Positions 13,164 through 36,004 of a DNA stretch of 64,000 nucleotides are shown here, one piece after another (within the stretch, counting starts at the first letter, position 1; the number at the start of each line of letters is the position of its first letter). The stretch is taken from assembly GCA_003388555.1 (NCBI GenBank), contig QQVD01000068.1, positions 62,001 to 126,000 on the forward strand. The letters are read 5' to 3'. The notes under the pieces were generated by a model that was given only the letters and a program-made list of their open reading frames with translations, searched no databases and had not been told where the DNA came from. This DNA is from Acidobacteriota bacterium (GTDB lineage Bacteria; Acidobacteriota; Thermoanaerobaculia; Multivoradales; Multivoraceae). A program made the position numbers and the translations under genes.

Positions 13164-13318
13164 GGACCCTCGCCATCGTCCACCAGGCACTGCTGCCGTC
13201 GGGCGGCGTCGAAGGTCCCGGCCGGGGCACGCTCCGGCTGTGATGTGATCGAAGACGGGCCGAGGTCCGCCGAGTTCCCGCGGCACGGCCAGGGCCCGAC
13301 GAGACTGGAAGGAGCCGT

Positions 13319-13633
13319 ATGAGTCAGCAGAAGAAGAAGGAAGAGCCCGCCGACAGGGTGCTGCGCCTCGAGCGGGTGCACAAGAAGCTCACCCGCTACC
13401 GGGGCTGGGACTACGACGACGATCTCGAGGCGCTGGTGCGCACCTATGAGTTCCCCTCGTTCCCCGCCGCCATCCGATTCGTCGCCTATGTCGCCGAGCT
13501 GGCGGAGCTGGCGCAGCACCACCCCGACATCGACATCCGCTACAGCAGGGTGAAGATGGCGCTCTCCACCCACGATGCTGGTGGCATCACCGACAAGGAC
13601 TTCGATCTCATCGACCAGATCGATCAGCGCTGA
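13319..13633 (+). CDS. phhB: Pterin-4a-carbinolamine dehydratase
   Basis: 104-aa protein of the PCD/DCoH family, which dehydrates 4a-hydroxytetrahydropterin. The full signature is visible: HHPDI (residues about 66-70), then Y..VKM.LSTHDAGGIT. ATG 13319 follows GGAAGGAG. The N-terminus is Lys/Glu-rich. No aromatic amino acid hydroxylase is nearby, so it may serve a distant partner. Its last 10 bases overlap the convergent phosphopantetheinyl transferase gene. Confidence 0.9.
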   Translation: MSQQKKKEEPADRVLRLERVHKKLTRYRGWDYDDDLEALVRTYEFPSFPAAIRFVAYVAELAELAQHHPDIDIRYSRVKMALSTHDAGGITDKDFDLIDQIDQR

Positions 13634-14433
13634 TCCGGCGGCGCCAGGTCCGTCGCGTCGCGCAGCCGCGTCGCCTCCTCGTCGAGGTAGGGCTCGGGTC
13701 GGGAGTCGAGCGTGCCTCGGAGGCTGGGCAGACAGAGCGCCGCCCGGTAGTGCGCGCCGACGTCGAGCTCGACGAAGCTCCACGCCTGCGGCCGGTCGCC
13801 GGGCATCTCGGTGCGCAGCAGGCGCGGCCCGGCCGGTTGCCCGGGGGGACCTCCCTCGCTGCGGCCCGCCTCCGCCAGCGCCACGGAGAAGCGTCTCGAC
13901 GAGAAGGTGAGCCCGGTGCCCCAGGACTTGAGGTACGCCTCCTTGAGCGTCCAGAGGCGGTAGAAGATGTCGGTCTGCCGACCTGGCGGCGCGGCGAGGA
14001 AGAAGGCCGCCTCGTCCTCGGCGAAGAAGCGTCTCGCCAGACGCTCCAGCCTCCGCTCCGGCGCCGCCCGTTCGACATCGATGCCCAGTCGGCCCCCCCA
14101 GCACGCAGCGCCCACCACCACCAGGGCGATGTCGGCGGAGTGCGACACGTTGAAGCTCAGCGTGCCGCCGGGCAGCGAGGGCTTGCCGTGCTCACCGGTG
14201 ACCAGCTTCACGGCGCCCGGCGCACAGCCGAGACGGCGCGCCAAGATGCGACGCAGTGCAGCGCGAGTGCGCACGAACTGACGACGCGGAGCCGGGACGA
14301 CGAAGCGCTCGGCGCGGTTCCGCTCGGCTGCACTGAGCAGGCCGACGTCGGCGTCGGTGCCTTCGGCCGCCAGGTCGACCCTCCACAGCTCGAGCCAGGC
14401 GTCGTCGGGGACGCGGCGACGCGACGCGCTCAC
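13624..14433 (-). CDS. Sfp-type 4'-phosphopantetheinyl transferase (PfaE candidate)
   Basis: Transfers phosphopantetheine from CoA to carrier-protein serines. 269 aa, GTG start at 14433, 10 bp after the oleD stop, so the two are probably cotranscribed. Family motifs: GEHGKPSLPGG, FNVSHSADIAL, the Mg-binding LGIDVE, and FFAEDEAAFF...LWTLKEAYLKSWG. The double-length Sfp form, unlike AcpS, activates secondary-metabolite carriers. It is the only transferase in the window, and pairing with oleD suggests that it activates the three ACP domains of PfaA 25 kb away. That link is inference. Confidence 0.92.
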   Translation of the reverse strand: MSASRRRVPDDAWLELWRVDLAAEGTDADVGLLSAAERNRAERFVVPAPRRQFVRTRAALRRILARRLGCAPGAVKLVTGEHGKPSLPGGTLSFNVSHSADIALVVVGAACWGGRLGIDVERAAPERRLERLARRFFAEDEAAFFLAAPPGRQTDIFYRLWTLKEAYLKSWGTGLTFSSRRFSVALAEAGRSEGGPPGQPAGPRLLRTEMPGDRPQAWSFVELDVGAHYRAALCLPSLRGTLDSRPEPYLDEEATRLRDATDLAPPDQR

Positions 14434-14443
14434 CGGGCTCGCC

Positions 14444-15496
14444 TCACCGTCCGTCCGCCGGCTGCGCGCCGGCCGCCTGCTGGCGCCGCAACCGCGTCAG
14501 CTCCTCGAGGCCGTCGGCGACGCTCCGTCGCGGCCGGTAGCCGAGCTCGCGCCGGGCGCTTTCGATCGAGAACCAGTGCGAGGTCGCCAGCTCGCGAACC
14601 ACCCAGCGGGTCAGTGGCGGCTCCCGTTCGAGGCGCAGGAGGGCCCAGACGACCTCGAGGGCCGCGGCGAGCGCCGTGGCGACCGGGACCGGGAGGCTCC
14701 GGCGTACCGGACCGAGACCCTGACTCGCCAGCATGCCGTCGATCATCTCCCAGGTCGCGATCGTCTCCCCCGAGGTGACGAAGTAGGCGCTGCCGGCGAG
14801 CTGCGGACGCTCGACGAGCGCACGCCAGGCCGCCACGTGCGACTCGACCGCGTCTTCGATGTGGGTCGGCGAGATCCGCGGCCGACCGGGCGCGGCGCCG
14901 ATCCTCGCCAGGCGCCCGGCGCGCGCCCTGGCGACGATGCGCGGCATCAGGTTGGTGTCCCCGGGACCCCAGATCAGGTGGGGGCGCAGCGCCACCGCCG
15001 CGACTCCTGCCCCGGCGGCGTGCTGCAGCAGCCAATGTTCGGCGAGCGCCTTGCTGCGCGGATAGTGCGCATGGTGCTCGAGGACGAGCGGCGCCTCCGC
15101 CTCGTCGACGCCCTCGAGGTCTTCGCCACGGAAGGCGACGCTGGGCGTCGAGGTGTGGACAAGCCTCGGCACTCCGGCTTCGGCACAGGCGGAGAGCACC
15201 TGCCGGGTGCCGATCAGGTTGGTGCGCTCGTAGTCCCGCCAGCGCCCCCAGGCGCCGGTGCGTGCGGCGACGTGGAAGACCACGTCGCAGCCCTGCGCCG
15301 CCTCGCGCAACGCCGCCTCGGCGTCGGCGCTTCCCAGGTCGACGGTGCACTGCTCGATCCCGAGGGACTCGAGCCGCGGCGACCGACTGCGGGAACAGGA
15401 GCGCACCTGGTGGCCGAGATCGAGCAGCCGGCGGGCCAGGGCACCTCCGAGAAAGCCGGTGGCGCCGGTCACCAGTGCCCGGCTCGGCGGCGTCAT
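14444..15496 (-). CDS. oleD: OleD-like NAD(P)-dependent 2-alkyl-3-oxoalkanoate reductase
   Basis: 350-aa extended SDR/3-beta-HSD family protein. NAD motif TGATGFLG (10-17), STPSVAFRGED, catalytic Tyr145/Lys149 (YPRSK) and LRPHLIWGPGD followed by RARAGRLARIG. As I recall the family, STPSV.F.GED and HLIWGPGD are shared with OleD of Shewanella and Xanthomonas, which reduces the 2-alkyl-3-keto acid made by OleA. It stands apart from the oleABC genes by 10 kb but on the same strand, directly before the phosphopantetheinyl transferase. A sterol-dehydrogenase-like role is the main alternative. Confidence 0.82.
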   Translation of the reverse strand: MTPPSRALVTGATGFLGGALARRLLDLGHQVRSCSRSRSPRLESLGIEQCTVDLGSADAEAALREAAQGCDVVFHVAARTGAWGRWRDYERTNLIGTRQVLSACAEAGVPRLVHTSTPSVAFRGEDLEGVDEAEAPLVLEHHAHYPRSKALAEHWLLQHAAGAGVAAVALRPHLIWGPGDTNLMPRIVARARAGRLARIGAAPGRPRISPTHIEDAVESHVAAWRALVERPQLAGSAYFVTSGETIATWEMIDGMLASQGLGPVRRSLPVPVATALAAALEVVWALLRLEREPPLTRWVVRELATSHWFSIESARRELGYRPRRSVADGLEELTRLRRQQAAGAQPADGR

Positions 15497-15527
15497 CCGG
15501 CAGCCCCGTCCGGAGTCGTTCGAGCGC

Positions 15528-18242
15528 TCACTCCGCTTCCGCCAGGCGCGACAGCAGGCCCTGGACCAGGATCATCTCGGCACCCCGACGTGGCGCCTCG
15601 ATGAAGAGGAGGAAGCCCTCGTCGTCGACGTCGAAGGAACGCCCCTCGCTGCCGTGGCGGTAGAAATCCAGCTCGAAGAGCTGCTGCGGGGCGGAGATCG
15701 GGGGATCCGACTCGGGTCGCAGCTCGACACTCCAGATCGAGTCGTCTCGGCGGTAGAAGATCCTCTCGCCATCGCGCGAGAAGACCGGCTGGTTGCCGCC
15801 ACCGACCGAGACCTGCCAGCGGGAGCGCGCCGGCTCTCCCTCGGGTCGGAACTCCTGCAGGAAGACCTCTGGAAGGTCCGCCTCCTCGGCGGCGAAGACC
15901 AGCCAGCGTCCGTCGGGCGAGATGTCTCCATTGCCCTCCGCGGCGGCGGTGCGCACCAGCGGCGTCTCGGCGCCGGTGGCGAGCTCGTAGGCATACAGAT
16001 CGGCGCCGGTCGACGGGTCCGTGGCGTTGAAGAGCAGGAAGCGCCCGTCCGGCGACCAGTCCTCGACGAACAGTACCCGCGTGCCGGTGGTCAGCGGCGT
16101 TGCCGGTTCTCCGGCCTCGAGCTCGATACGGAAGAGGTTCAGGCCGCCCTCGGGAGCGCCCTCGGAGGTCGGTCGGCTCGACGAGAAGGCCACGGAGCGC
16201 CCGTCCGGGCTCCACACCGGCGACATGTCCAGCTTGGAGTGCTCGGTGATCTCCCGCAGAACACCCGCCTCGTCGAGCAGCCAGATGTCCAGCAGATCCT
16301 CGAGGCTGACCAAGGCCCGCCCGTCGACCGGCGACAGTCGCGCCGAGAGGTACGGCTGCTCGGGCAGCGCGAGCGGCTCGAGCCGGCCTTCGAAGTCGAC
16401 CCTTGCTGCGGTGCGGCCCCGTCCGCTGTTGCCGGTGACCGGCACGTAGACGAAGCTGCCGTCGAGCCCGAAGGCGTACTGCACCGGCACCGAACCCGGG
16501 CTCGCCAGGTTCGGCTCGTCGAGCGTCCGCACGTCGTCGCCGAGCTGCAGCGTCTCGAGATCCAGCGGGCCGTACGACAGCCTGCCCTTGCGTGCGAAGA
16601 CCAGGTGCCCGCTCGGCAGGTAGCGTGGTCGGATGGCGCCGCGGACCAGCTCGCCGCGCTCGCCGGACTCGAAGTCGTAGACCATCACCCGGGCGAGGTC
16701 GACGTCCTGCCCGAAGACGCTGCTGTAGACGATCGCCCGTCCTCCCGGCAGGAGCTGGGGGTGCGCGTGACCGAGCTCGCCGGTCGGCGCGTCGAGGGGG
16801 ATCACCTCCTCGACATCGCCCCCAGCGGCCGCCACCGCCTGCATGCCGACGCCGAACTCGGACCAGTAGTAGATGCGGTCGTCCTGACCCCACGCGCCGC
16901 CGAGCGGCAGCGTCGCCCGGGCGATCTCGATCGGCTGTTGCGTGCTGCCCGGCGTCGCCCGGACCCGCTTCAACTTGCCGCCCGGGAGGGTGAAGAAGCC
17001 GATCCACTCGCCGTCGGGAGAGAAGAAGGGCTGGCGGGCGTTGCGCGTGCCGGGGATCTGCTCGGTCTGCAGCGATTCGTTGCTGCGCCGCACCAGGTGC
17101 CGGGCGCCGTCGATCTCCGCCACCCACACCAGCAGCGACCCGTCGGGAGAGAGGGCGAGGGTGTGATCGAAGGCTCCCGGGATCGGCAGTGGCGCCCAGT
17201 CCGGCAGGCTCATCGGGATGCGCCGCAGCTCCGCCGCTGGCGCCGCCGCCCGGTCGCCGAGCCCCCAGGCGACGAGCCCGAGCAGCGCGACCGCCGCCAC
17301 CGCGGCGAGGCCCACGGCGAGGCGCCGCACGCCACTCGTTCGGGGCCGTGTCACCACCGCAGGCATCGAACCGGTGGTGAGCATCGCCAGCGGCCTGAGG
17401 CGCTCGATCAGCTCGGTGGCGCTTTCGAGGCGACGCTCAGGGTCCTTCTCGAGCAGGTCTTCGATCACCTCGGAGAGCGGCTCCGGAATGGTCTCGATGC
17501 GCTCGCGCACCGGCTGCGGCTGGGTGCGCAGGATGGCTGCGATCCAGTCCGCCTGGGTGTCGCCGTCGAACGCCTTGACGCCGCTCGCCGCCTCGTAGAG
17601 CACGGCGCCGAACGAGAAGAGATCGGAGCGGCCGTCGAGGGTCTTGCCCTGCAGCTGCTCGGGCGACATGTACTGGACCGTGCCGAGCACCGTGCCGACG
17701 CTGGTCAGGGTGCCCGACGCCAGCAGATCCTCGACGTCGAGGTCCGAGGAGCCGCGCTCGCCGCGCCGGGTCGACTTGGCGACGCCGAAGTCGAGCAGCT
17801 TGGGCCCGGCCTCGGTCAGCATGATGTTGGCCGGCTTGAGATCGCGGTGCACCAGGCCGGCCCTGTGGGCGTGCGCCAGCGCCGCGGCGATCCCCAGCCC
17901 GACCTCAACCACCTGCTGCGGCGGCAGTGCGCCGGCCCGCAGGCGCTCCTCGAGGTTCTCACCCTCGAGATACTCCATCACCAGGTAGATCTGGTCGTCG
18001 ACGTCGAGCACGTCGTAGAGCGCGCAGATGTTGGGGTGCGAGAGCTGCGAGATCGCGCGCGCCTCGCGCTCGAAGCGCAGCCGCTTCTCCTGGTTCGTCT
18101 CGGCCGGCGGCAGGCGCTTGATGGCCACCGAGCGTTCGAGCTTCTGGTCGACGGCCCGATAGACCTCGCCCATGCCGCCGCCGCCGAGCAGGGCGAGAAC
18201 GCGGTAGCGCTGCTTGAGGAGTGTGCCGACCTGCAGGGTCAT
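15528..18242 (-). CDS. Serine/threonine protein kinase with C-terminal TolB-like beta-propeller
   Basis: 904 aa from ATG 18242 (MTLQVGTLLKQRYRV); the frame is open further upstream but the added residues look non-coding. PknB-type kinase domain about 10-285: GGGGMGEVY, VAIKRL, HRDLKPANIML, DFGVAKS, GTVQYMSPEQL. A single membrane helix (about 310-335) is followed by about 550 residues of PD40/WD40-like blades (repeated LSPDGS, FSPDGEWIGF, WSPDGRSVAF, ISPDGRWLVF). Thus a cytosolic kinase with an extracytoplasmic propeller sensor. It ends 31 bp before the oleD start on the same strand. Confidence 0.92.
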   Translation of the reverse strand: MTLQVGTLLKQRYRVLALLGGGGMGEVYRAVDQKLERSVAIKRLPPAETNQEKRLRFEREARAISQLSHPNICALYDVLDVDDQIYLVMEYLEGENLEERLRAGALPPQQVVEVGLGIAAALAHAHRAGLVHRDLKPANIMLTEAGPKLLDFGVAKSTRRGERGSSDLDVEDLLASGTLTSVGTVLGTVQYMSPEQLQGKTLDGRSDLFSFGAVLYEAASGVKAFDGDTQADWIAAILRTQPQPVRERIETIPEPLSEVIEDLLEKDPERRLESATELIERLRPLAMLTTGSMPAVVTRPRTSGVRRLAVGLAAVAAVALLGLVAWGLGDRAAAPAAELRRIPMSLPDWAPLPIPGAFDHTLALSPDGSLLVWVAEIDGARHLVRRSNESLQTEQIPGTRNARQPFFSPDGEWIGFFTLPGGKLKRVRATPGSTQQPIEIARATLPLGGAWGQDDRIYYWSEFGVGMQAVAAAGGDVEEVIPLDAPTGELGHAHPQLLPGGRAIVYSSVFGQDVDLARVMVYDFESGERGELVRGAIRPRYLPSGHLVFARKGRLSYGPLDLETLQLGDDVRTLDEPNLASPGSVPVQYAFGLDGSFVYVPVTGNSGRGRTAARVDFEGRLEPLALPEQPYLSARLSPVDGRALVSLEDLLDIWLLDEAGVLREITEHSKLDMSPVWSPDGRSVAFSSSRPTSEGAPEGGLNLFRIELEAGEPATPLTTGTRVLFVEDWSPDGRFLLFNATDPSTGADLYAYELATGAETPLVRTAAAEGNGDISPDGRWLVFAAEEADLPEVFLQEFRPEGEPARSRWQVSVGGGNQPVFSRDGERIFYRRDDSIWSVELRPESDPPISAPQQLFELDFYRHGSEGRSFDVDDEGFLLFIEAPRRGAEMILVQGLLSRLAEAE

Positions 18243-18468
18243 CGATCGTCGTCTCGTTCGGGAGGCGATGGCGTCAACGGGCAGCACCGCGCAGGTCGGC
18301 GCGGAGGGAGGCTTGCCGCGCGCCCGGATCGCGTCGATCCGCCGCCCGGGCGGCGCCACTCGGGCACCGGGACCTGCGGCGCGCGAGCTCGGCGGTGTCG
18401 CAGCGCCGCGCGCCGGCCGCGGTCGCCGGAGCGTTCGAGCCTCGCCGAGACGACTCGGCGACGCCGGG

Positions 18469-20232
18469 TCAGTAGGTCTTGAGGAATTCTAGCAACGCCG
18501 AGCGGTCGTCGGGCTCCAGGTCGGTGCCGTAGCCGGGCCCCTCGTGCCCGGCGTTGGAGTTGCCCTTGCCGGAGACGTCGAAGACGAAGGCGCCCTGGGT
18601 GTCCAAAGGCACCTGGACCAGGCCGACCGACTCGGGGTCGTACTCCCGCGTACCGACGACGAACCGCGGAGGTCTGCAGTCGTCCGGAGAGACGGAGCAG
18701 TCGGAGGGTTTCAGCAGATCCGCGAGGGTCGGCACCGAACCGTTGTGCAGATGCGGTGGCGTCGACCAGATACCGTGCAGACGGCGGGCCGGATAGCCCG
18801 TGATCGCCTCCTTCCACACCACGTTGGGTCGACCCCCGGCCCACTGATCGCGGAGGTCCTGCGGCACGTCGTTGTCGACCCAGTACTGCTCCTCGATCCC
18901 CTGCAGCGCCCTGGCGAGGGCGGAGGCATAGTTCGTTTCGCCCTGCCAGCCCTCGCCGAGCAGCGGCCGGTTGTAGTTGTCGATCTCGGTGCGGTCGGTA
19001 CCGATGTTCTCGATCGGCACCACCTTCAGCGAAACCAGCGATCCGTCCGGATTCGGCGCCACCTCGTGGCAGCCGGCGCAGCTGCGCGCGAAGATCTCCT
19101 CGCCGCGGGCGGCGAGATCGCGATCGATCGGACCGAGGATCTCCTCCGGCCACTGCGGTGGCTCGAACTTGTAGGAGATCCGCTCCAGTGTGTCCAGGTT
19201 CTCGAGTACCGCGCTGGTCCAGTTCGAGCGCCGGTCCCAGATCGCGCCGAAGGCCATCGCCTCGGCCATGTTGCGCCGCATCACGCCGTTGGTGTTGGCG
19301 ATCCAGTGCAGCCACTCGATGTCCTCGAACTGCCAGAGATTGGGAATGGTGACCGGCGCGTCCATCGACTGCGGCGTGAACATCATGTTGCGCGACGCGC
19401 CCCAGGCGTCGGCGCGGCCAGGACCGGCCGGGGTGGTCTCGACGGTGGTCGCCCACTTGAAGTAGGACACCGTCATCTCGAGCCTCGCCAGCAGGTGCTC
19501 GAGCCGCAGCGCCTCCTGCTCGAGATGCGCCGCCTCGTCGAGCACGCCATCGAGGAAATCGAAGCGCGCCTCGCGGTCTCCGTGGTCGTCCAGCCGATCG
19601 TCGAAATCGGCATCGGCGGCGACCACCTGCTGCTCTTCTTCGGGACTCAGCTCGGACTCGTCGTGAGGAGTCCCTTCGCAGGCGCTGCCCTCCAGATGGC
19701 GCACCCGCTTCCACATCTTCCACAGCTTGACCGGATGTGCCGCCAGGTGCGCGCTCGCCTCCACCAGCGCGTCTCGGAAGCCGAACAGATCGCCGAGGTT
19801 CGGCGCTCCGTCGATCAGCATCGACTGCCCCTGGTAAGTCAGCTCGCCGACGTGGCAGACCGCGCAGTTGAATCCCACCATGTCCATGTCGAGGTCCGAG
19901 GCGTGCGACACGGTGATGCCGATCGGCAGGCAGTTCCCCTCGGAGGGATCGGCGATGAAGCCGAAGCGCTCGAGGTTGTCCTTCAGCAGGGTGCCCGGCT
20001 GGGCCGGATCCTCGAGCACCGTGAACAGGCCGTACGGGAACAGCTCGGCTCCCTGGGTCAGGTGGTAGTACTGCTCGCGCTCGGCGTCGGTGAGTGCCCC
20101 GGCGGGCAGCGACGCCTCCTGCAGAGGCTCCGTCGCCGGCCGTTCGGCGCAGCCCCAGCAGGCGGCTGCCGCGACGATAAGGGGCGCCGCGGAGCGGACC
20201 GGGCGATGGCGATTGGGCGGCGAGCTGGGCAT
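18469..20232 (-). CDS. Secreted diheme cytochrome c, peroxidase/RoxA-like superfamily
   Basis: 587 aa from ATG 20232 behind GGAGGG. A hydrophobic signal (RSAAPLIVAAAACWGC) indicates export, possibly as a lipoprotein. Two c-type heme motifs, CAVCH near 122 and CAGCH near 385, are about 260 residues apart. Conserved text around them (VGFNCAVCHVGELTYQG; TPPHLHNGSVPTLADLL) is of the type seen in diheme peroxidase-like proteins and the RoxA/RoxB rubber oxygenases, which share the fold. Length is closer to RoxA (about 650 aa) than to CcpA (about 350 aa). Function remains open: oxygenase, peroxidase or electron carrier. Confidence 0.75.
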   Translation of the reverse strand: MPSSPPNRHRPVRSAAPLIVAAAACWGCAERPATEPLQEASLPAGALTDAEREQYYHLTQGAELFPYGLFTVLEDPAQPGTLLKDNLERFGFIADPSEGNCLPIGITVSHASDLDMDMVGFNCAVCHVGELTYQGQSMLIDGAPNLGDLFGFRDALVEASAHLAAHPVKLWKMWKRVRHLEGSACEGTPHDESELSPEEEQQVVAADADFDDRLDDHGDREARFDFLDGVLDEAAHLEQEALRLEHLLARLEMTVSYFKWATTVETTPAGPGRADAWGASRNMMFTPQSMDAPVTIPNLWQFEDIEWLHWIANTNGVMRRNMAEAMAFGAIWDRRSNWTSAVLENLDTLERISYKFEPPQWPEEILGPIDRDLAARGEEIFARSCAGCHEVAPNPDGSLVSLKVVPIENIGTDRTEIDNYNRPLLGEGWQGETNYASALARALQGIEEQYWVDNDVPQDLRDQWAGGRPNVVWKEAITGYPARRLHGIWSTPPHLHNGSVPTLADLLKPSDCSVSPDDCRPPRFVVGTREYDPESVGLVQVPLDTQGAFVFDVSGKGNSNAGHEGPGYGTDLEPDDRSALLEFLKTY

Positions 20233-20482
20233 GGTCGGGGTCCCTCCAACGCCCGCAATCCGATCTACGGGCGCGACACCCGTCGACCAGGCCGCGGCGG
20301 CGACGAGGCGCGGCGACGCCCCGGTACTTCCGTTCTGGTTGCGACTGACGGCGAGCATCAGAGCATCGGCGACCGAGGCTGTCAAGAAATCAGAGCGGCA
20401 GTCCGTCGAGCCGTCGTCGAGCCTCACTGGCCGGTCGGCGGGCCCCGATCGACCCAGCGGCCGGAGCCACGAGCCCCGCGGC

Positions 20483-20491
20483 TGCTAGACT
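20483..20491 (+). promoter_or_regulatory. Extended -10 promoter candidate for FHA-GGDEF gene
   Basis: TGCTAGACT fits an extended -10 (TGn plus TAGACT). It predicts a transcript start near 20498 and a leader of about 60 nt to ATG 20558. There is no convincing -35, as is common with extended -10 elements. Confidence 0.4.
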
Positions 20492-20557
20492 CGGGGGTCG
20501 TTCATGCGAGGAGCCGCACCGCTTCGCGTGGCTCGTCCGCCGACTCCACCGCCTGCC

Positions 20558-21430
20558 ATGAGCTCCGAGACAACGACCCGCATCACCCGCGTCGCCGCGA
20601 CCGATCCTGCAGTCGTGGAGCAGGCCTCGGTGGTGCTCATCTACGGCAACCAGCTGGGGCGCAGGTTCTCGATCGATCCCGAGCTGTCGGTCGGACGTGC
20701 GCTGTCGAACTCGATCGTTCTCGACGACGACAGCGTGTCGCGCCAGCACGCCCTCTTCTACCGTCGCGGTGACGGCTTCTTCGTCTCCGATCTCGGCAGC
20801 ACCAACGGCACCCTGGTCAACGACTTCCCGGTCGAGTCGGAGACACCGCTGCGCAACGGCGACTTGGTGACGATCGGCGGCGTGGTGTTCAAGTTCATCA
20901 GCGACAACACCGAAGCGCAGTACTTCGAAGAGATCTACCGCCTCACCATCATCGACGGGCTGACCCAGATGCACAACCGTCGCTATCTGTTCGAGTTCCT
21001 CGAGCGTGAGGTGCTGCGCTGCTCGCGATCGGGCTCCGATCTCGGTCTGGTGCTGGTCGACATCGACAACTTCAAAGCGATCAACGACACCCACGGCCAC
21101 CTCTTCGGCGACCGCGTGCTGAAGGAGATCGCGAAGCTGATACGCGACGTTGTGCGCAAGGAGCAGGTGCTGGCGCGCTACGGAGGCGACGAGTTCGCGG
21201 CGGTGCTCACCGACACCGATCCTGAAGGCTGCCGGATGTTCGCCGAGAAGGTGCGTCGACGGGTCGAGGATCACCCCTTCCGCAGCTCGGACGGCCTCGC
21301 CGTGGAGACGACCCTCAGCATCGGACTCGCTTCGCTCGACGGCCCCTGCACCCACGAACAGTTCTTCGAGCGTGCCGACGCCGCCCTCTACCGCGCCAAG
21401 CAGGCGGGACGCAACCGCGTCGCCGTCTGA
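20558..21430 (+). CDS. FHA-domain diguanylate cyclase (GGDEF)
   Basis: 290 aa. ATG 20558 is preferred over 20504 because codons between them lack the strong GC third-position bias of the gene and the likely promoter lies at 20483. An N-terminal FHA domain (about 25-110; VGRALSN, SVSRQHALF, LGSTNGTLV) recognises phosphothreonine. A GGDEF domain follows (about 130-290) with LTQMHNRRYL, DNFKAINDTHGH and an intact active site RYGGDEF, so it should make cyclic di-GMP. The product-inhibition site expected as RxxD five residues before GGDEF reads RKEQ. FHA suggests control by one of the Ser/Thr kinases of this genome. Confidence 0.93.
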   Translation: MSSETTTRITRVAATDPAVVEQASVVLIYGNQLGRRFSIDPELSVGRALSNSIVLDDDSVSRQHALFYRRGDGFFVSDLGSTNGTLVNDFPVESETPLRNGDLVTIGGVVFKFISDNTEAQYFEEIYRLTIIDGLTQMHNRRYLFEFLEREVLRCSRSGSDLGLVLVDIDNFKAINDTHGHLFGDRVLKEIAKLIRDVVRKEQVLARYGGDEFAAVLTDTDPEGCRMFAEKVRRRVEDHPFRSSDGLAVETTLSIGLASLDGPCTHEQFFERADAALYRAKQAGRNRVAV

Positions 21431-22485: not shown

Positions 22486-24101
<1,616 letters not shown>

Positions 24102-24105
<4 letters not shown>

Positions 24106-25055
24106 GCGAGCGCGCGGCCATGCAGGACGAGGCCCTCACCCTGTTCACCGACGGTGGCGCCAGTCCCAATCCGGGTCCCGGCGGCTGGGGAGTCGTCGGC
24201 GTGGTCGGCGACGAAGTCGCCTTCGAGCTCTCTGGCGGGGAGCCCGACAGCACCAACAACCGGATGGAGCTCACGGCGGCGATCGAGGGACTGGCCAGCC
24301 AGCCGGCCGGGAGCAGGCTGCGGTTGGTGACGGATTCGCAGTACCTGCGCCAGGGCATCACCAGCTGGATCGCCTCGTGGCGGCGCAACGACTGGATGCG
24401 GGGCCGGCCGCCGCGCCTGGAACCGGTCAAGAACGCCGATCTGTGGCGGCGACTCGACGCGCTGAACCGCGAGCGCGACGTCCGTTGGGAATGGGTCAAG
24501 GGTCATGCTGGCCACCGCTTCAACGAGCGCGCCGACGAGCTCGCCAGCGCCGCGATCGCCGCCCTCGGCGAGTCTCGACCCGCCACGGCACGCGCCGACG
24601 CCGCAGAGAGCGCCAGCGCAGCGGCGGACGACGCCCCCGACTGCATCGTGACCGTGGCGGTGCGCTTCTCGCGCGGACGCGGCGCCTGGGCGCTGCACAT
24701 CGACGCCGGCTCGGAGAGCGAGACGGTCGTCTCCCAGGAGCGCGCGACATCGTCGGCGAATCGGTTGGAGCTCGCCGCCGCCCTCGAGCTGACCCAGCGC
24801 GCCGAGCGACTGCCGGCGCCGCTCGAGGTGCGCTGCGGCGACTACCTGCGCCGGGGCGTGCTGGAGTGGCTGCCCTCCTGGCAGCGCTCCGGCTGGCGCA
24901 CCGCGGGCGGCGACCCGGTGAAGAACCGCGACCTCTGGGAGCGCCTCGAGGCACGGCTGCGCCAGCTCGAGTCCTCCGGCCGCAGCATCTCTTTCGCCCG
25001 AGCCGACGGCGGATCACCCCAGGTGCGCGAGCTCAAGGCCGCGCTGCGGGGCTGA
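24102..25055 (+). CDS. rnhA: Ribonuclease H with degenerate second RNase H-like domain
   Basis: 317 aa, twice the usual RNase HI length. The N-terminal domain (about 10-150) is complete: FTDGGASPNPGPGG with Asp17, NNRMEL with Glu near 56, TDSQYL with Asp near 78, and GHRFNERADEL with the last Asp near 145. After an Ala-rich linker (150-180) a second RNase H-like fold repeats the pattern: ANRLELAAAL, CGDYLRRGVLEWLPSWQRSGWRT and DPVKNRDLWERL mirror the first domain, but the first and last catalytic acids are not recognisable. Overlaps prfC by 4 bp and ends 12 bp from the convergent oleC. Confidence 0.9.
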
Positions 25056-25067
25056 CCTCCGCCCCCG

Positions 25068-26765
25068 TCAGCCGCCGCCCTGGCCGCTGCCGGCGTCGAC
25101 GCCGAGACGCCGCGCCGCCCAGAGCGCCAACTGCTCGCGGAAGATCTTGGCGTTGTGTCGCACGTCGACCGGGAAGCTGCGGCGGAAGAGCACCGTCTCG
25201 ATCCGTCTGGTGCGCGGGTCACCGGCTCCGAGCTCGAGCAGCTCGCCGACCAGAGCGGTGCGCCGACCACGCCCGAGGCGTCGCCGCGGCTCGACGCAGA
25301 GAACCGGCCGCGCCCTGTCCGGAGGGCCGACGCCGACCAGCGCAGTGCGGCGTACGTCCGGGTGGCGGTTGAAGATCGCCTCGCAGGGGATGGTGAACAG
25401 GTCACCGCCCTCACAGCGGACCCGGTGAGTCAGGCGACCGCACATCCACAGGCGTCCCTGGTCGTCGAGCCAGCCGACGTCGCCCATGCGGTGCCAGAGG
25501 CGGCCGGCGGCGTCGCGGAGCTTGTGGTGGCGGGTGGCCTCGGGGCGCCCGAAGTAGCTCGGGCTGGTCTGGGCGCTCGAGACGACGATCTCGCCGATCT
25601 CGCCGGCCGGCAGAGGCTGCTCCAGCACGCTCGGTGCGACCTCGCCGTCCTCGATCGGCACGATCCGCAGCTCGACGCCCTCGAGAGCACGACCGACACA
25701 AACCCCCGCTCCCTTCTCGGTCTCGGCTCGGGTCTCGTCGAGCAGCTCGCGACTGCCGATCGTCGCCACCGGCAGCGACTCGGTGGCACCGTAGGGCGTG
25801 TGCACCTCGGCGGCGTCGTCGAGGGCGGCGGCGAAGCGCTGCAGTGACGGTAGCGAGGCCGGCGCCCCAGCCGACAGCGCACGCCGCAGCGTCGGCAGCG
25901 ACCTGCCCTGCTCGACGCAGTAGGCGCCCAGCTTCTCGACCAGGGCCGGTGAGGCGAAGAGGTTGGTGCAGCGGTAGGTGTCGAGCGCCTCGACGAGGCG
26001 GGCGGGATCGGCGCGGCCGGGGCGCGAGGCGTCCATCCAGGGAACCACGGCCGCCATGCCGAGCGCCGGCCCGAACAGCGCGAAGAGCGGAAAGGTCGCG
26101 AGATCCCGCTCGCCGGGCTGGATCCCCCACTGCGAGCGTAGCGCCGCGACCTGGGCACAGAACATGCCGTGGGTGTACAGAGCGCCCTTCGCCGGCCCGG
26201 TGCTGCCACTGGTGAACAGGATGGCCGCCGGACGATCGCGCTCGGCGGTGGCCGCGCCGGGCGCCTGCCCGGTTGCTTCGCATTCGCTGCCCTCGGGCGG
26301 TCCGCCGGCCGGCGGGCCCGCCGAGCTCACCCGCTGCACCAGCTCCACCTCCGGGACCCATCCGAAGAGGCGCCTCGCCAGGAGCGCCTTGCGCACGCCG
26401 AAGAAGGCGCGGGGCCGCGCCTCGGCGAGGCAGCGGCCGAGATTGCGCAGCCCCATGCCTGGGTCGACCAGCACCAGCACCGCACCCGAGCGCAGCAGCG
26501 CGAAGGTCAGCGCGAAGAAGTCGACCGAGGGCGGCACCATCAGCACGACGTGATCGCCCGGCACCACGCCGAGTCTCTCGATGACGCCGATCCACCCGCG
26601 GGCGCGGGCCTCGAGCTCGGAGAAGGTGAGCTCGTCGAAGCCGCCGCGGCGACGCGCCACCGCCACCGCGAGATCGTCGGGTCGCTCCCGCGCACGCGCC
26701 GCCAGCTCGAGTGCAACGTTGTCGCAGCTCGCCTCCACGTCGCGGCGGCGATCGCCGGGCTTCAT
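25068..26765 (-). CDS. oleC: OleC-like beta-lactone synthetase (ANL superfamily)
   Basis: 565-aa adenylate-forming enzyme. P-loop LFTSGSTGPAKGALYTHG near 185-202, the aromatic/hinge block YGATESLP, and a C-terminal part with MGDVGWLDDQGRLWMCGRLTHRV. Taken alone it resembles an acyl-CoA synthetase, but directly after oleA and oleB it fits OleC, which activates a 2-alkyl-3-hydroxy acid with ATP and closes it to a cis-beta-lactone. Phrases such as GDHVVLMVPPSVDFFALTFALLRSGAVLVLVDPGMG match what I recall of OleC. ATG 26765 overlaps the oleB stop. Confidence 0.9.
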   Translation of the reverse strand: MKPGDRRRDVEASCDNVALELAARARERPDDLAVAVARRRGGFDELTFSELEARARGWIGVIERLGVVPGDHVVLMVPPSVDFFALTFALLRSGAVLVLVDPGMGLRNLGRCLAEARPRAFFGVRKALLARRLFGWVPEVELVQRVSSAGPPAGGPPEGSECEATGQAPGAATAERDRPAAILFTSGSTGPAKGALYTHGMFCAQVAALRSQWGIQPGERDLATFPLFALFGPALGMAAVVPWMDASRPGRADPARLVEALDTYRCTNLFASPALVEKLGAYCVEQGRSLPTLRRALSAGAPASLPSLQRFAAALDDAAEVHTPYGATESLPVATIGSRELLDETRAETEKGAGVCVGRALEGVELRIVPIEDGEVAPSVLEQPLPAGEIGEIVVSSAQTSPSYFGRPEATRHHKLRDAAGRLWHRMGDVGWLDDQGRLWMCGRLTHRVRCEGGDLFTIPCEAIFNRHPDVRRTALVGVGPPDRARPVLCVEPRRRLGRGRRTALVGELLELGAGDPRTRRIETVLFRRSFPVDVRHNAKIFREQLALWAARRLGVDAGSGQGGG

Positions 26766-27736
26766 CGGCCCGCGGCTCCGCGCAGGTGCGAGACGATCGG
26801 CGCCGCCACGAGATCGAAGGCGTCCTCCAGCAGGTAGTGGCCGGCTTCGGGGGCCTCGACGTACGTGGCCTCCGGCAGGCGCTGCTTCCAGCCGGCGAGG
26901 AAGTGCTGGTCGAAGACGAAGTCCCGGCCCCCCCAGGCGACCAGGAGGCGCCCGCCGTCGAGCCCTCGCAGACCACGCGCCGTCGCCGCGACCCGTTGCC
27001 AGGAGCGGTGGTTCTCACCCAGCGGGATGTCGAGCACGAATTCGTGCACGGCGCGGCGATCCCGCCACGAGGAGTAGGGAGCGAGATAGCCCCGGCGGAC
27101 CTCACCCGACAGCGCCTGGGTGACGCACGATCGCGCCGCGCCACGCTCGAACAGGCCCAGACCGCGCACCAGCAGTGACCCGATGACGGGCAGGCGCGCG
27201 AGACGCAGCGCGAGCGGCACCCTGGCGCTCTCGGGCAGCGGGAAGCCCGCCGTGTTCATCGCCACGACGCGATCGCAGCGATCGAGGTGGTCGACGATCC
27301 AGGACAGCCCGATCATCCCTCCCCAGTCGTGCACCACGAAGGCGGCGCGATCGATCCCGAGTGCCGCGAGCAGCCGATCGAGATCGTGCACACGCGCCTG
27401 GAGCGAGTACGGGTAGTCGACGCGGGCGGGCCGATCGGAGAGCCCGCAGCCGAGGTGATCGGGAGCGATGGCACGGAACCCCCGGTCGGCGAGCAGCGAG
27501 ATCAGCCGGCGGTAGAAGAAGCTCCAGGTCGGGTTACCGTGCAGCAGGACGACAGGCGGCCCGTCACCTTCGTCGACGACGTGCATGCGGCCCGCATCGA
27601 GCTCGATCCAGCTCCCGTCGAAGGGGAACAGGCGACGCTCGATACCGAGAGTCGCCAGCGCCGAGGCAGTGCCGTCGACGAATGGCCTCGCCGCCGTCCT
27701 GCCGGGGTCGCCTGCCGATCGCGGCGCCACCGTCAT
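26762..27736 (-). CDS. oleB: OleB-like beta-lactone decarboxylase (alpha/beta hydrolase)
   Basis: 324 aa from ATG 27736, behind GGGAAGGGACG; a TTG 24 bases upstream is less likely. Haloalkane-dehalogenase-like fold: LLHGNPTWSFFYR (66-78), PDHLGCGLSDRP, nucleophile Asp137 in VHDWGGMIG, and the late His in EAGHYLLED. An Asp rather than Ser nucleophile is shared by dehalogenases and OleB. The neighbours oleA and oleC favour OleB, which removes CO2 from the beta-lactone to give the cis-olefin. Third step-gene of the ole segment. Confidence 0.9.
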   Translation of the reverse strand: MTVAPRSAGDPGRTAARPFVDGTASALATLGIERRLFPFDGSWIELDAGRMHVVDEGDGPPVVLLHGNPTWSFFYRRLISLLADRGFRAIAPDHLGCGLSDRPARVDYPYSLQARVHDLDRLLAALGIDRAAFVVHDWGGMIGLSWIVDHLDRCDRVVAMNTAGFPLPESARVPLALRLARLPVIGSLLVRGLGLFERGAARSCVTQALSGEVRRGYLAPYSSWRDRRAVHEFVLDIPLGENHRSWQRVAATARGLRGLDGGRLLVAWGGRDFVFDQHFLAGWKQRLPEATYVEAPEAGHYLLEDAFDLVAAPIVSHLRGAAGR

Positions 27737-27773
27737 CGTCCCTTCCCGGTGGGGCGGCAACGCCGGACCGGAC

Positions 27774-28841
27774 TCACCAGTCGACCCCCAGCATCAGACA
27801 GTTGAGGCCGCTGCCGATCCCGAGCAGGCCGACCCGGTGCCCGGAGGCGACGAAACCGCGCTCCTCGGCGACGGCGAGGGCGAGCGGCAGGGCCACCGTG
27901 CCGGTGTTGCCGAGATGCGAGTAGATGGCGAAATCCCGCTCCGGCGGCACCTCGAGCGCCCGCAGGATCTCCTGCCGGTGGCGCAGGCCGACCTGGTGGC
28001 AGATGGTGCGGTCGACACGGTCGGCCTGCCAGCGCAGCTCGGTGAGGAACCGCTGCCAGGTCCGCCGTCCGAGCGCCACGCCGTGCTCGAGCACGGAGAC
28101 GGCGTCGGTGACCATGAACTCGCGCAGGGTGCGGCTGCCGCCGGCGGACTCGCCGACGACCTCCGTCCCCCAGCGACAGAGGCGATGGTGCTCCGGCGCG
28201 GTCTCGAGCACTCCTCCGAGCAACCGTCGGGGCTCGTCCTCACCGCCGCGGCGGAGGATCATCGCCACCGCTCCGGAGCCTCCGGTCATCGTCGCCACCG
28301 AGCTCGAGAAGCGACGCAGGCTGGAGTCCTCGTGCAGCGCCGCGATGGTCGCCTCGACGATGTCGCGAGCGCTCTCGCTGGCCACCACCATCCCCGCCTC
28401 GATCTGCCCGAGCTCGATGCGGTTCGCCACGTCGAGCATCCCGTTGAGCACGCCGAGGCAGGCGTTGGAGAGGTCGAAGACCGCGGCGTGCAGCGGCACC
28501 TCGTGGCCGAGCGCAGCCAGCTCGCCGGCGACGACGCAGGCGGTGGCGGGCTCGTGGTGGTCGCGGCAGACGCCAGCGTAGATCAGCGCTCCGAGATCCT
28601 CGGCTCCCAGGCTCGAGAGCTCGAGCGCCTTGACGGCGGCGGCGACCGCTCCCTCCGAGACCCGCGTGCCGCGCTGCCACCAACGCCGCTCGTGGATGCC
28701 GGTCAGCGTGGCCAGCTGGCCCTTCGGGATGCGCAGGCGCTGGAAGACGGCAGACAGCCTCTCCTCCAACTCCTCGGTGGACACCACCACCGGAGCGAGC
28801 TCGTAGCCGATCGCCTCGATCACCACCCGTTCGTATCTCAT
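27774..28841 (-). CDS. oleA: OleA-like head-to-head acyl condensing thiolase
   Basis: 355-aa thiolase-superfamily enzyme, FabH-like in fold. OleA joins two fatty acyl thioesters by non-decarboxylative Claisen condensation to a 2-alkyl-3-keto acid. Key residues are visible: Glu97 in CRDHHEPATA, nucleophile Cys128 in SNACLGVLNG, His282 in CHQVG and Asn312 in HLGNTGTV. The RDxxxEPATA motif with its Glu separates OleA from FabH. GAGG precedes ATG 28841, 52 bp after pfaC. The position directly behind the PUFA synthase suggests that it takes polyunsaturated chains. Confidence 0.94.
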   Translation of the reverse strand: MRYERVVIEAIGYELAPVVVSTEELEERLSAVFQRLRIPKGQLATLTGIHERRWWQRGTRVSEGAVAAAVKALELSSLGAEDLGALIYAGVCRDHHEPATACVVAGELAALGHEVPLHAAVFDLSNACLGVLNGMLDVANRIELGQIEAGMVVASESARDIVEATIAALHEDSSLRRFSSSVATMTGGSGAVAMILRRGGEDEPRRLLGGVLETAPEHHRLCRWGTEVVGESAGGSRTLREFMVTDAVSVLEHGVALGRRTWQRFLTELRWQADRVDRTICHQVGLRHRQEILRALEVPPERDFAIYSHLGNTGTVALPLALAVAEERGFVASGHRVGLLGIGSGLNCLMLGVDW

Positions 28842-28893
28842 CGCATCCTCGCCGGCCCGGTGCCTGCTCCGCCGCCGCCCTCCGCCGAGCGGC

Positions 28894-31800
28894 TCACGGC
28901 GCCGCCGTCCGCGTTCCCTCGCGGCCAGCCTCGCTCCCCGTGCGAGCGTCCCTGGTCGCGAGCGACGTCGAGAAGTCGAAACCGAGCTCCTCGATCTGGT
29001 AAATGACGCGGCCGTCGACCGAGAGCAGGCCGTCGGCGAGCAGCGTGCCCTCGGTCTCCAGCTCGTCCGGCCCGCTCTGCGCGAGGCTCAGCTCGCGGAT
29101 CGAGGCCTCGACCACCACCCGACGGTCCCGAGGCGTCACCTGTCCGCGATAGGTCCAGCGGTGGGCGCGCCCTCGGGCCGCGGGCGTGAAGCGCCACTCC
29201 CCGCCGGGCCGCGCGACGTCCGCGGAGGCAGCCCGCGAGGCCCGCTCGGCAGCGTAGCGCGTCGCCCAGAGCTTGAGGAGCTGCTGGAAGGCCTCGAGAC
29301 CGAGCGATCCGGGCCAGACCGGATCCTGGAAGAAGTGCGCCTCGAAGAACCAGGCCGCGGGATCGACGTCGATGGTGCCACGCACGAAGCCGCGACCGTG
29401 GCGGCCGCCATCCCCGCACAGCACCTCGATGCGGTCGATCATGCGCCAGCTCGGCGCCGGGAACGGGGCCTCGCTCGGCAGCCGTGCGACCGGGTCGGAG
29501 CCGTCGCCCACCGACCCGGGCGAGTCGGCTGCAGGCTCCCAGGGTCGCGCCTCCCTCAAGCCCACCTGGTTGGCGAGCGCCGCCTGCGGGAAGAAGCCGA
29601 AGTACGTCGTGCCGCTGTACACCTCGCCGACACGGGCGCTGAGCACCCTGAAGCGGAAGTGCTGGATGATCATCCCGCCCGAGGCCGAGGTGCGGGTGAG
29701 CTCGACCTCGGTGGTCAGCACGTCGTCGCGGCGCTCGGGAACCGTTGCGAGCGTCGCCTCTCCGCCGAGGTTGCGGAAGCTGAGGTCCTGCTGCGAGGTC
29801 AGCGCCGATCCGCAGTAGGCCGCGAGCCATCCGCAAGGCTGCAGGGCGACCTCGAGCAGCGCGGCGAAGGCGAGCGAGTCCTGGCGGTTGGCCGAGAACG
29901 TCCAGTCCTCCGGCCGCTGCCGCCACTGCGCGGTGCAGCGCGCTCCGGCGGCCAGAACGAACGGTTCGCCGTGCACCTCGACGACGCGATCGAGGAACTG
30001 GTAGGGCGCCCGCGGCAGGCGCGCGATGCGACGTTCACGGTCGAAGACGCTGTAGGGCGCACCGAAGGCGCGCGAGGGGGCGCCGGAGGCAAAGGCGACG
30101 ATCGACTCGTGGTCGTAGACCGCCGGGCGCAGCGCCTGCTCGAGCGAGAAGTCATCGCTCGCCGCGCCCACGGCCTCCTGCCGCGACGACTCGCCGGACT
30201 GCGCGGCGCATCGAGCCGCGGGCTGGTCCTCCACCGCCGCTGCGGCGCCACGCCACAGTCGCTCCAACGACGCGCGATCGCTGCCGCTGAGCTGCAGGCT
30301 GAGATCCTGGATCTCGACGATCTCGCGACCGTCGGCGAGCAGCACCGCATCGGCCAGCACGTACGGAGCGGGGCCGTAGCCGATCTCTTTGATCTCCACC
30401 CGGTAGCCGGCGCGGCGCGTCTCGGGGAGCACCTGGCCCCTGCAGCGCAGGCGCGACGCGATCCCGGCGACCGGTTCCCAACACACCTCACCGCGACGTC
30501 CCACCCAGCCGAGCCGCAGCAGCAGCACGCGCAGGGTGTGCAGGCAGCATTCGTACATCAGGGTCCCGGGCATCACCGGATCGTCGACGAAGTGGCAGGT
30601 GAGGAACCAGTCGTCGGGGGCGATGTCGGCCTCGGCCTCGACCAGCCCGAGTCGGTGGCGACCGCCGAGCGGCTCCAATCGGGTGACGCGGTCGATCAAC
30701 TCCAGCTCGCCGCGCGGCAGGGTGACGACCGGCGCCGCCGCGGCAGCCGCCGGACCGTACCGGGGACCGAAGGCTGCGACGAGGTCGCCGCGACGCAGCG
30801 CCTCGAGACCGGCAGCGTCGAGAGCGCCGACCCCGTCTCCCGTTGCTCCGTCGTGCTCGACGGTCTCCGGCAGCAGCGGCCTCCAGCCTCGCGACACACC
30901 TCTCCCCTCGTTCCCGGCCAGGCGTCCGCGCACGACGCCGCGCCCCGCCGCCAGCTCGCTCGGCGAGAAGAAGCCGGCGCAGCCATCGCGCATGCGGAGC
31001 AACGGCTCGCCGTCGATCGTCGCGTCGAAGGCGAAGCGGAAGAGCCAGTTGTCGCCCTGCCTGAAGAATCTCTCGATGCGGATGTCGTAGTGCACCACCT
31101 CGCCGGCCCGCGGCAGACCGCGCTCGAAGGTCACCACCGCGTCGAGCAGCCGGTAGCGGCGTTCACCGCGAGTCTGCGAGTCGATGCCGAGGAAGGCGCT
31201 GAGCAGCAGGTCGGCCTGCCCCGCCTCGACCGCGATCGCGGTCGGCAACCGCCCCTCGTCGAGGTACCAGCCGGCTTCGAGCACGTCGTGCTCGGTAACG
31301 ATGCGCCCTGCCTCGAGACTGCCCGGTTGCCCTTCGATCACCAGTACGCGATCGACGAGCATGAGGGGCTCGTCCGGCAGCCGCACGCGGGTGGGGAAGA
31401 CGTCGACGTGAGCGAAGCTCGCTCCGAGCACGGCGCCGATCTCTCCGCGCGCGAACTCCAGGCACTTCGATCGATCGAGGCTACGCGGCACCCCCGCCGC
31501 GCCGTCGTCGACCACGCCGGCGCCGCAAGATGACTCGGATGACTCGGATGACTCGAATGGCTCGGAGGGCTCGCGGGTCGCGTCGGGTGGCGGCTCGGCC
31601 GAGGCCGCGGTGGCCGACCGCTGCGCCGTCGAGCGCCCGGCCGCGATCGCGTCGAGCGAGGCCTCGATCGGGCGGCGCGAGCGCACCCGCAGGCGGCGAG
31701 CCGCCATCCGTCCACCGGAGGCGGGATCGTGCTCGGCGGGCGCGGAGACGCCACCGAGGGCTCGCAGCGTGGCCGAGGGATCGACCGCGAACCCGCGGAC

Positions 31801-34800
31801 CCAGAGGTCGGCGACGAGCTGCAGCAGAGATCGTAGGGGCGGGGTCGTCGGCGGGGAGAGCGCCTTCACCAGCGGCGCGACCCGGTGCGGCCCGGCGGCC
31901 CCACTGCCGCCGGCAGCCTCGTCGAGAATCGAACGGATCATCCGGGTGCAGCTGGCACCGGGCCCGATCTCGACGAAGCCTCGCACGCCGTCCTCCCAGG
32001 CTCGGCGGATCACCGCCGGGAAGTCGAAGCCTTCCACTGCCTGCTCCAACAGCGAGTCGGCGCAGCTCTGGCGAGACGGTGCGTAGGCACGGGCCCAGGC
32101 GGCGCTGTAGACCCGGACCTCGACGTCCTCGGCGCAGTCGAGCTCGTGCAGGGCGCGGTAGCGGTCGCGCACCGGCTCCACCGCCGAGCAGTGCACCGCC
32201 GACACCGGCCCCAGGGGGTGCAGGCGGAGGTCGAAGCGGCGGCAGAACTCCTCGACGGCGGCGCGCTCGCCCCCGAGCACGCAGTCGCGGTCGGTGTTGA
32301 CGATCAGCCGCGCCAGCCGCGCCAACCGAGCCCCGCCGGCCCAGGACTCGAGTCGGCGATCGAGCTCTTCGCGCCCCACCGGCACCACCCCGGCCAACCA
32401 TTCGAAGTCGGACTCGGCGGCGACCGACCAGGCGCGCCGAGCGCTCTCGCAGCGACCGGCGAGCTGCACCGTGAACAGATCGTCCTGCCGCATCCGACGG
32501 TGCATCTCCTCGCCATCGCTCCATACGCCGCTGGCGAAGAGAGCTGTGGTCTCGCCGAGCGAGTAGCCCACGGCCGCCTGTTCGCGCACGCCGAGTCGGC
32601 GCAGCAGCCGTCGCTGCAGCACCCCCAGCTGCACCTGCGCCTGGATCTGCTCGGCGACGCTGCCCTGTCGCCACCCGAAGGCGACCGGCGGCACCAGCAT
32701 CTCGGCGAAGCGCCTCTCCTCGATCCCCGCGTGCACGAGATCCGGGAACCAGGCCAGCAGCTCGCCGAGCCGCGGGTCACCGAGGTTGCCCGAGCCGGGA
32801 TAGACGAAGGCCAGCTCACCGGGTTCGGCGACGGGGCGACCGAGAAACCAGCGCGATCCGCTCCGCCCCAGCCCGGCCTGGCCGTCGGCAGCCTCCCGCC
32901 AGCTGCCGACCGCACGCAGCAGCTCGTCCACGGCCCGGCGCAGCTCGGCGACATCGTGCGCGACGACGCCGCCGCGCAACGACGCACCGTGAGAGGCGGC
33001 GGCTCCGGGGCCGTCGGCGACGGGGTGCTCTCTCCGCCAGCGCCACGACAGCTCGGTCAGCCCGCTCTCGGGTGCTGTCTCGCACAGCTCACGCAGCCGC
33101 CCGACCGCAGCGGCCATTCCCGACGCTCCGGCCGCCTCGAACAGGAAGAGCGCGTGACCGGCTGCCCTGCGACTCCCTCGCTGCCCTGCGGCAGCCGCGC
33201 CTCGCGCCGCAGCGGTCGCCGGCGGGGCCTCTTGCAGCACCAGGTGGGCGCTGCCTCCGAGACTGCCCATGACCTGCACACCGGCCGACGCCGCTCCCGC
33301 CCCGCCCGCCGGAACCAGTGGGCTCGACGGACGCGGCGAGACGGCGAGAACTCCACCACTGCCGACGCGCAGCACCGCGCCGGCGGGGACGATCCCCTCG
33401 GCCAGCCCCAGCGCCGCGCGACAGATCGCCAGGAGACCGGAGGCGATCGGCGCGTTCCCCGTCGTGGCGCGCACGCTGGCGACCGGCAGGGCGGCCGGTG
33501 GCCAGGCCGTGCCGGACGCCCCGAGCCAGCGCTCGAGCGCCGCGTGCTCCAGCGCCTCCTGGTGTGGATCGCCGCCGGCATGCAGCTCGAGCCAGGCCGC
33601 GCGGTCGGGCTCGGCGCCGGCCTCCCTCCAAGCCGCACGGGCAGCTCGCACCGACGCGGCGACGGATCGCTCCCGGCGAGAGGGGCTGGCCAGCGTTTCG
33701 TCGAGCTCTCCTGATCCGCACACTGCCAGGCCGCTCAGGCGGGCGTACGGCGTCGCACCACCCTCCCGGCGAGCCGTCGTCCGAGGGCTGTGGAGGACCA
33801 GGCAGGCCGCGCCGTCGCCCCTGGCCCCGGAGTCGCGCAAGACCTCGAGTCGCGGATCGCACGCCAGATCGACACCGACGACCAGGGCGAAGTCGATCTC
33901 TCCCGCCGCCAGAGCCTGGCGAGCCATGTCGAGGGCCTGGGCACCACCCAGCTCGGCGGCAGCCACCCCGTGAGCGGGCCCGCCGATGCCGAATTCGCGC
34001 GCCACCCTGCTGGCCACGATGCCGCCGAGCGATCCGAGGGTGCGATCGGCGTCGAGCAGCTCGCAGAGGCGCCGCAGCCCGTCCGGGGCGTCGCCGTCGC
34101 GCCCGCTCACGGCCAGCCGATCGGCCAGCAGCCAGCGCAGGCTGAAGTCCCACGCCGACGGATCGAGCTCGAGCGCCACGTAGACGCCGCAGCGCTCACC
34201 CTCCGCCAGACGGTGACCGTCACGACGACACTCCGTCGGCAGCAGGCCGGCGTCCTGGAGCGCCGCCTTGCAGACCTCCAGCGCCAGCAGCTGCTGGACC
34301 ATCGAGGCCTGCAGCTCGCGGGGAGGGATGCGGAACTCGGTCGGGTCGACCTCGAGCTCCTCGATCGCGGCGTCGGCGCCGCCGGATCCCGGGCCGCCGA
34401 GCCCGAGTAGGGATCCCCAGAGGGCATCGCCCGAGCCGTCGCCGAAGCGGGCCGCCAGTCCGACGACGTCGCAGGCTGCGGCGAGTCGCTGCGGTCCCTC
34501 CGAGGCCACGGCGACTCGGCTCGGGACCTCGGAAGCGGACCGCCCCGACGGCCTCCGGCCACCATCGCCGAACCCATCGGCGGGCTCCTCCCACTCCTCG
34601 AGGACCAGGTGGGCGTTGATGCCGCCGAAGCCGAAGCCGTTGATGCCGGCCCGGCGGGGCCGATCGACGGGCCGACTCCACTCCTCGGGCGTGCGCAGGA
34701 TCCTCAACGGGCCGTGCCCGATGCCGAGCGACTCGCGCGCCTTCTCGAAATGGGCGACCGGTGGCAGCAGCCGGCGTTCGAGCGCGGTCAGCAGGTTGAC

Positions 34801-35943: not shown

Positions 35944-36004
35944 TCGTCACCTTCCCGGGTCACTACGGGCTGCGGCGCGCTGGGCGAGCTGCGCCTGCCG
36001 GAGC

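Follow-up and report, generated by a model that had tools for sequence, protein, structure and literature searches.

An oleD gene set apart from oleABC and adjoining the sole Sfp-type phosphopantetheinyl transferase of an acidobacterial genome

Genes of the pfa-ole locus

The window, by which we mean the whole stretch of 64,000 nt that was analysed, carries a pfa-ole gene cluster and, at some distance on the same strand, an oleD gene together with a gene for a 4'-phosphopantetheinyl transferase (PPTase). The features are listed below in the order of their coordinates.

13624-14433, minus strand: Sfp-type PPTase, 269 aa, GTG start (PF01648)
14434-14443, minus strand: gap of 10 bp between the oleD stop and the PPTase start (read from the sequence)
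14444-15496, minus strand: oleD, 2-alkyl-3-oxoalkanoate reductase of the SDR family, 350 aa (NF042422, tree)
15528-18359, minus strand: Ser/Thr protein kinase with PD40 repeats (Pfam); its gene precedes oleD at a distance of 31 bp
18469-20427, minus strand: di-heme cytochrome c peroxidase / RoxA-like protein (NF040606, 348 bits)
20504-21430, plus strand: FHA-GGDEF diguanylate cyclase (Pfam); orthologues in L099 and L100 are 62% and 56% identical
22486-24105, plus strand: PrfC (release factor 3), 72% in G042
23787-25055, plus strand: tandem RNase H protein (PF00075, two stretches); the true start lies at about 24087 inside the open frame
25068-26765, minus strand: oleC, beta-lactone synthetase (NF045785, 589 bits)
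26762-27760, minus strand: oleB, beta-lactone decarboxylase (alpha/beta hydrolase), 37-48% identical to OleB of oleABCD loci
27774-28841, minus strand: oleA, acyl-acyl Claisen condensing thiolase (NF006720, 451 bits; OleA structures 3row/3s21)
28894-35943, minus strand: pfaC-like gene (pfaBC fusion), KS-CLF-AT-DH-DH
36005-43405, minus strand: pfaA, KS-AT-3 ACP-KR-DH (TIGR02813, 1351 bits)
43195-45003, minus strand: pfaD, enoyl reductase (TIGR02814, 625 bits), start codon uncertain
45479-46540, minus strand: DUF3014 protein (PF11219), beyond the pfa-ole insertion, with a counterpart in L099
46661-48713, minus strand: VWA (CoxE-like) and MoxR genes, 85% and 84% identical in G043

The cluster at 25068-45003 is read in the order pfaD, pfaA, pfaC, oleA, oleB, oleC, and profile and domain matches revealed neither oleD nor a PPTase gene within it, as the sequence-only reading had noted. 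From the end of oleC to the start of oleD there are 9.57 kb with five genes, of which the RNase H, PrfC and FHA-GGDEF genes run opposite to oleD and the peroxidase and kinase genes in its direction; the PPTase gene is more than 14 kb away from pfaC. The coordinates, strand and 10-bp spacing that had been given for oleD and the PPTase gene are exact. No second OleD or second PPTase is encoded in the window, and oleD lies outside any oleABCD cluster there.

PfaA contains three GIDSIKRVEIL carrier sites. The corresponding ACP units at 38637-39619 form three repeats, each about 390 bp long and almost identical to the others (76-87% over 206 nt), which suggests recent duplication or gene conversion. 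At the other end of the locus a pterin-4a-carbinolamine dehydratase gene (13319-13633) is convergent with the PPTase gene, the 3' ends of the two overlapping by 10 bp.

Identity of the reductase and its pairing with a PPTase gene in a second genome

Among the NCBIfam profiles the reductase scored best with OleD (NF042422, 340 bits), followed by the Shewanella OleD profile (300), HpnA (141) and SdmB (82). It stays below every strict equivalog cut-off, including the 580 bits of NF042422, a value which is tightly set around the Xanthomonas type. The motifs STPSVAFRGED and HLIWGPGD, on which the OleD assignment had originally been based, are present, as are the Rossmann motif GATGFLG (residue 11) and YPRSK (residue 145). 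A tree built from 59 reductases places the window protein inside a 53-row OleD group (SH-aLRT 93 for the group, 86 for the placement). Most members of this group are encoded next to oleC, and mouse NSDHL and the remaining SDR proteins of the genome fall outside it. Profile scores and tree thus rule out an HpnA or sterol-type 3-beta-HSD identity, the placement that would have told against the assignment.

A genome-wide search for another true OleD, whose presence beside ole genes of its own would also have told against the reading, found none, the next match reaching 66.9 bits at 32% identity, and only one OleA scored above the family cut-off. A remnant of oleD behind oleC can likewise be dismissed, as the stretch 24087-25055 encodes the RNase H protein on the opposite strand. 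On these sequence criteria the reductase is OleD and the only true one in the genome, and the separation of oleD from oleABC is therefore real. An OleD-like SDR enzyme that acts on a different substrate outside this pathway would agree with the score below the NCBIfam cut-off, with the long branch of the window protein in the tree and with the occurrence of OleD-like genes unlinked to oleC in unrelated contexts of several phyla. We nevertheless consider such an enzyme highly improbable, as the genome has a complete oleABC set and no further OleD candidate, the OleD profile exceeds all profiles of other families by 200 bits, and the same division into oleABC at one place and oleD at another recurs in a second genome, G435. 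As a separate observation, we noted OleD-like reductases of other phyla (L013, L019, L025, L029, L030, L035 and L044) with no oleABC in the fetched flanks and with varied neighbours.

To place the pair among its relatives, 396 genomes of the phylum were searched, and OleD was found at E <= 1e-60 in 15 of them, most with oleD directly behind oleC. The comparison took in 53 further OleD loci, 14 of the phylum and 39 on named genome contigs; contig ends cut many of these loci, and adjacency of oleD and a PPTase gene was seen in G435 only. Adjacency of the two genes is thus not the rule in related genomes. G435 belongs to the same phylum and to another family (loci C69 with L125, L126 and L120, and C176 with L144). 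Here oleD shares 1 nt with the PPTase gene, which is followed after 14 bp by pfaD; pfaA and pfaC follow downstream of pfaD on the same strand, with a gene for a ClC-type channel and other genes between pfaD and pfaA, and oleABC are located on another contig with no oleD. In G435 the pair thus stands in front of pfaD.

Regarding the descent of the two pairs, a sister relationship of the PPTases from the window and G435 was rejected (AU p 0.023), while for the two OleDs it was not (p 0.18). Inheritance of the pair as one unit by both genomes is ruled out by the result for the PPTases, and since these are not sisters the pairing probably had two separate origins. By our own estimate, oleD would come to lie beside one named gene by chance in a 6.8-Mb genome in roughly 1 in thousands of cases. 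The open-access literature yielded no report of an oleD that lies away from oleABC and adjoins a PPTase gene.

Two explanations of the adjacency have to be weighed here. It might be an accident of the insertion site of oleD and reflect no functional tie between the genes, and the lack of a PPTase gene near oleD at about 51 of the 53 other loci as well as the random neighbours of detached oleD-like genes in other phyla speak for this. We regard it as doubtful, given that there are two occurrences with unrelated PPTases, one of them with a 1-nt overlap, and that both genomes have pfa genes as well as an oleD lying apart from oleABC. Alternatively, the pairing could represent a recurrent, selected coupling in Acidobacteriota with at least two origins and unrelated PPTases, an idea that we offer tentatively and hold to be unlikely; if true, co-transcription of the reductase gene with that of the activator would link the formation of hydrocarbons to the amount of holo-ACP supplied.

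The PPTase and the two insertions

The assignment of the PPTase to the Sfp type, already made from its letters, was upheld: PF01648 gave 66.6 bits against a cut-off of 25, the closest solved structure is Sfp (1qr0), and the motifs GIDVE, FNVSHS and WTLKEAYLK are present, so that the domain is combined with GIDxE and WxxKEAxxK as defines this type. It is the sole PF01648 match in the genome (6.8 Mb, 98.8% complete), the same search giving two matches in most sister genomes, and no AcpS was found genome-wide. A further PPTase may exist if it is very divergent or encoded in the absent ~1% of the genome. Bacteria that make fatty acids by the type II system all need holo-ACP. As the only PPTase detected, the enzyme must, on this reasoning, also serve the housekeeping ACP, and its dual use for the primary ACP and the ACPs of PfaA is deduced from the gene content.

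A comparison with G042 and G043, which represent other genera of the family of the window organism, shows where the PPTase gene belongs. The order in G043 is PPTase(-), FHA-GGDEF(+), RNase H(+), DUF3014(-), VWA(-) and MoxR(-), and in G042 the PPTase gene is followed by divergent FHA-GGDEF, PrfC and RNase H. OleD is absent from both genomes, neither contains a PfaD above the cut-off, and the phylum search found no OleA in G042; the G043 genome is 92% complete, and a lost oleD there is conceivable. The window keeps these genes with their order and orientations, plus two added stretches. The first, of about 6.1 kb (14434-20503), lies between the PPTase and FHA-GGDEF genes and contains oleD, the protein kinase and the di-heme cytochrome peroxidase; the second, of about 20.4 kb (25056-45478), lies between the RNase H and DUF3014 genes and extends from oleC to pfaD. 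The PPTase tree joins the window enzyme with its counterparts in G042 and G043 (91/53, moderate support) and then with family f1. Because the neighbourhood is kept in the sister genera and the PPTase tree agrees, the PPTase gene is the older resident, to which the ole genes came as newcomers; since it sits exactly where genera without the pathway keep their orthologue, oleD and the PPTase gene did not arrive as a set.

A search for mobile-element borders at both insertions found no flanking repeats, all repeats being either internal to pfaA or chance matches, and the GC content is just slightly higher in the pfa-ole cluster. The OleC of the window is sister to the OleC of L031. A grouping of OleD with relatives of the window OleC was not rejected (p 0.20), and the tree is compatible with a joint arrival followed by a move of oleD as well as with its separate arrival. 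The di-heme peroxidase (18469-20427) was inserted alongside oleD, and a tie to the oxidation of polyunsaturated products is conceivable.

The sequence-only reading had described oleD and the PPTase gene as the missing second half of a split biosynthetic locus. The division between oleABC and oleD stands, and the part concerning the PPTase does not. That oleD and a dedicated PfaE-type PPTase form a two-gene pathway module that became separated jointly from the pfa-ole cluster could be argued from the 10-bp spacing, from the tight oleD-PPTase-pfaD operon of G435 with oleABC elsewhere and from the nearby PPTase gene in most Type I clusters. For the window PPTase this is already contradicted, and overall we judge it very unlikely: no other PPTase was found in the genome, the gene holds a position that is conserved in genera without the pathway, and the AU test separates the enzyme from its counterpart in G435. 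In addition, the P0 motif hRxhLS, found by Shulse and Allen in the PPTases of Types A-D, F, I and L (PMC3098273), is replaced by DVGLLS with no Arg. The motifs P1a, x(G/D)xP, and P1b, (F/S)NxSH, occur as HGKP and FNVSH, which is weak evidence since they are common to many PPTases of the order. The enzyme is neither dedicated to the Pfa synthase nor encoded beside it. Judged by genome content, neighbourhood and motifs, we consider the window PPTase an old resident housekeeping gene and not a dedicated half of the pathway, which it nevertheless probably serves.

The PPTase gene of the sister genera is one half of a divergent pair and thus preceded by an upstream region of its own. The window gene has instead a gap of 10 bp to oleD, which makes a joint transcript likely. 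The kinase gene at 15528-18359 could possibly open the transcription unit, and oleD, or kinase and oleD, followed by the PPTase gene would most likely be co-transcribed. A consensus promoter scan of 13300-20600, which is uninformative for this organism, returned no site.

Predicted pathway and comparison with known systems

Taken together, we are fairly confident that a resident and sole PPTase loads both kinds of ACP, that Pfa-fed Ole genes were inserted at two points around it, and that oleD and the PPTase gene are likely co-transcribed. One genome holds pfaD, pfaA with ACP repeats, a pfaBC fusion, oleA, oleB, oleC, oleD and a PPTase gene, which is the gene set of a Type I-like system. Judging from family membership, the steps would be as follows. 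The PPTase would load the primary ACP and the ACPs of PfaA, and PfaD-A-C, a 'Type I'-like synthase with pfaBC fusion, would build polyunsaturated acyl chains on the three ACP sites. Head-to-head condensation of two acyl chains by OleA would be followed by reduction of the beta-keto acid by OleD, a predicted NADPH-dependent 2-alkyl-3-ketoacid reductase; OleC would close the beta-lactone, and OleB would remove CO2, with a long polyunsaturated olefin as the predicted product. As for the history of the locus, pfaDAC-oleABC and oleD entered at two points around the resident PPTase gene, oleD landing directly upstream of that gene and replacing its former upstream region.

In the 396 genomes of the phylum, PfaD and OleA were each found above the cut-off in 6 and together in 3 (Fisher p 4e-5). 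This co-occurrence fits the known link from Pfa to Ole: in Shewanella OleA was shown experimentally to join Pfa-made chains to 31:9 (PMC6463001), and Type I clusters are often found together with ole genes, those with a pfaBC fusion having been proposed to feed the latter (PMC3098273). Genomes of the same order (G003, G004 and G007; L091-L094) carry pfaD-pfaA-pfaC with no ole genes nearby.

The pathway itself is thus a known Pfa/Ole hydrocarbon pathway, and it is the gene arrangement that is uncommon, recurring once. The locus places a complete Pfa-fed Ole pathway, as predicted, in an acidobacterial lineage whose relatives are without it, and the two insertion points show it settling around a resident PPTase gene rather than bringing its own. 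It also cautions that a PPTase gene adjoining a biosynthetic gene need not be dedicated to it. Should the pairing prove recurrent, it would provide a simple test case for accessory pathway genes gathering at a housekeeping activation gene.

The Pfa and OleABCD pathway to 31:9 in Shewanella and Photobacterium uses the same enzyme types with pfa and ole genes close to each other, and pfaE and the ole genes are found there inside or outside the pfa operon (PMC6463001). In contrast to the window, oleABCD form one operon in these bacteria; in the window oleD lies apart, the PPTase is the single one of the genome and pfaB is fused into pfaC. With the Type I clusters the locus shares pfaD, pfaA with ACP repeats, the fused pfaBC and the ole association, but their PPTase usually bears P0 and lies beside the synthase, whereas that of the window has an incomplete P0 and its own conserved neighbourhood, in the phylum Acidobacteriota (PMC3098273). 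Among the nearest clusters by sequence are the pfaDAC-oleABCD cluster of G147 from the same phylum (PfaA KS 64%, PfaD 57% to the window), with the order pfaD, pfaA, pfaC, oleA, oleB, oleC, oleD and an unbroken ole part, and the pfaC-oleABC...oleD cluster of L031 from the Planctomycetota (OleA 57%, OleC 53%). Unlike in the window, oleD stands behind oleC in both, directly in G147 and with one small gene between them in L031. Single broad-range Sfp-type PPTases serve primary as well as secondary metabolism, for example PcpS of Pseudomonas and the cyanobacterial Sppt. The window genome likewise possesses one Sfp-type PPTase and no AcpS, and a similar breadth for carrier proteins is predicted here.
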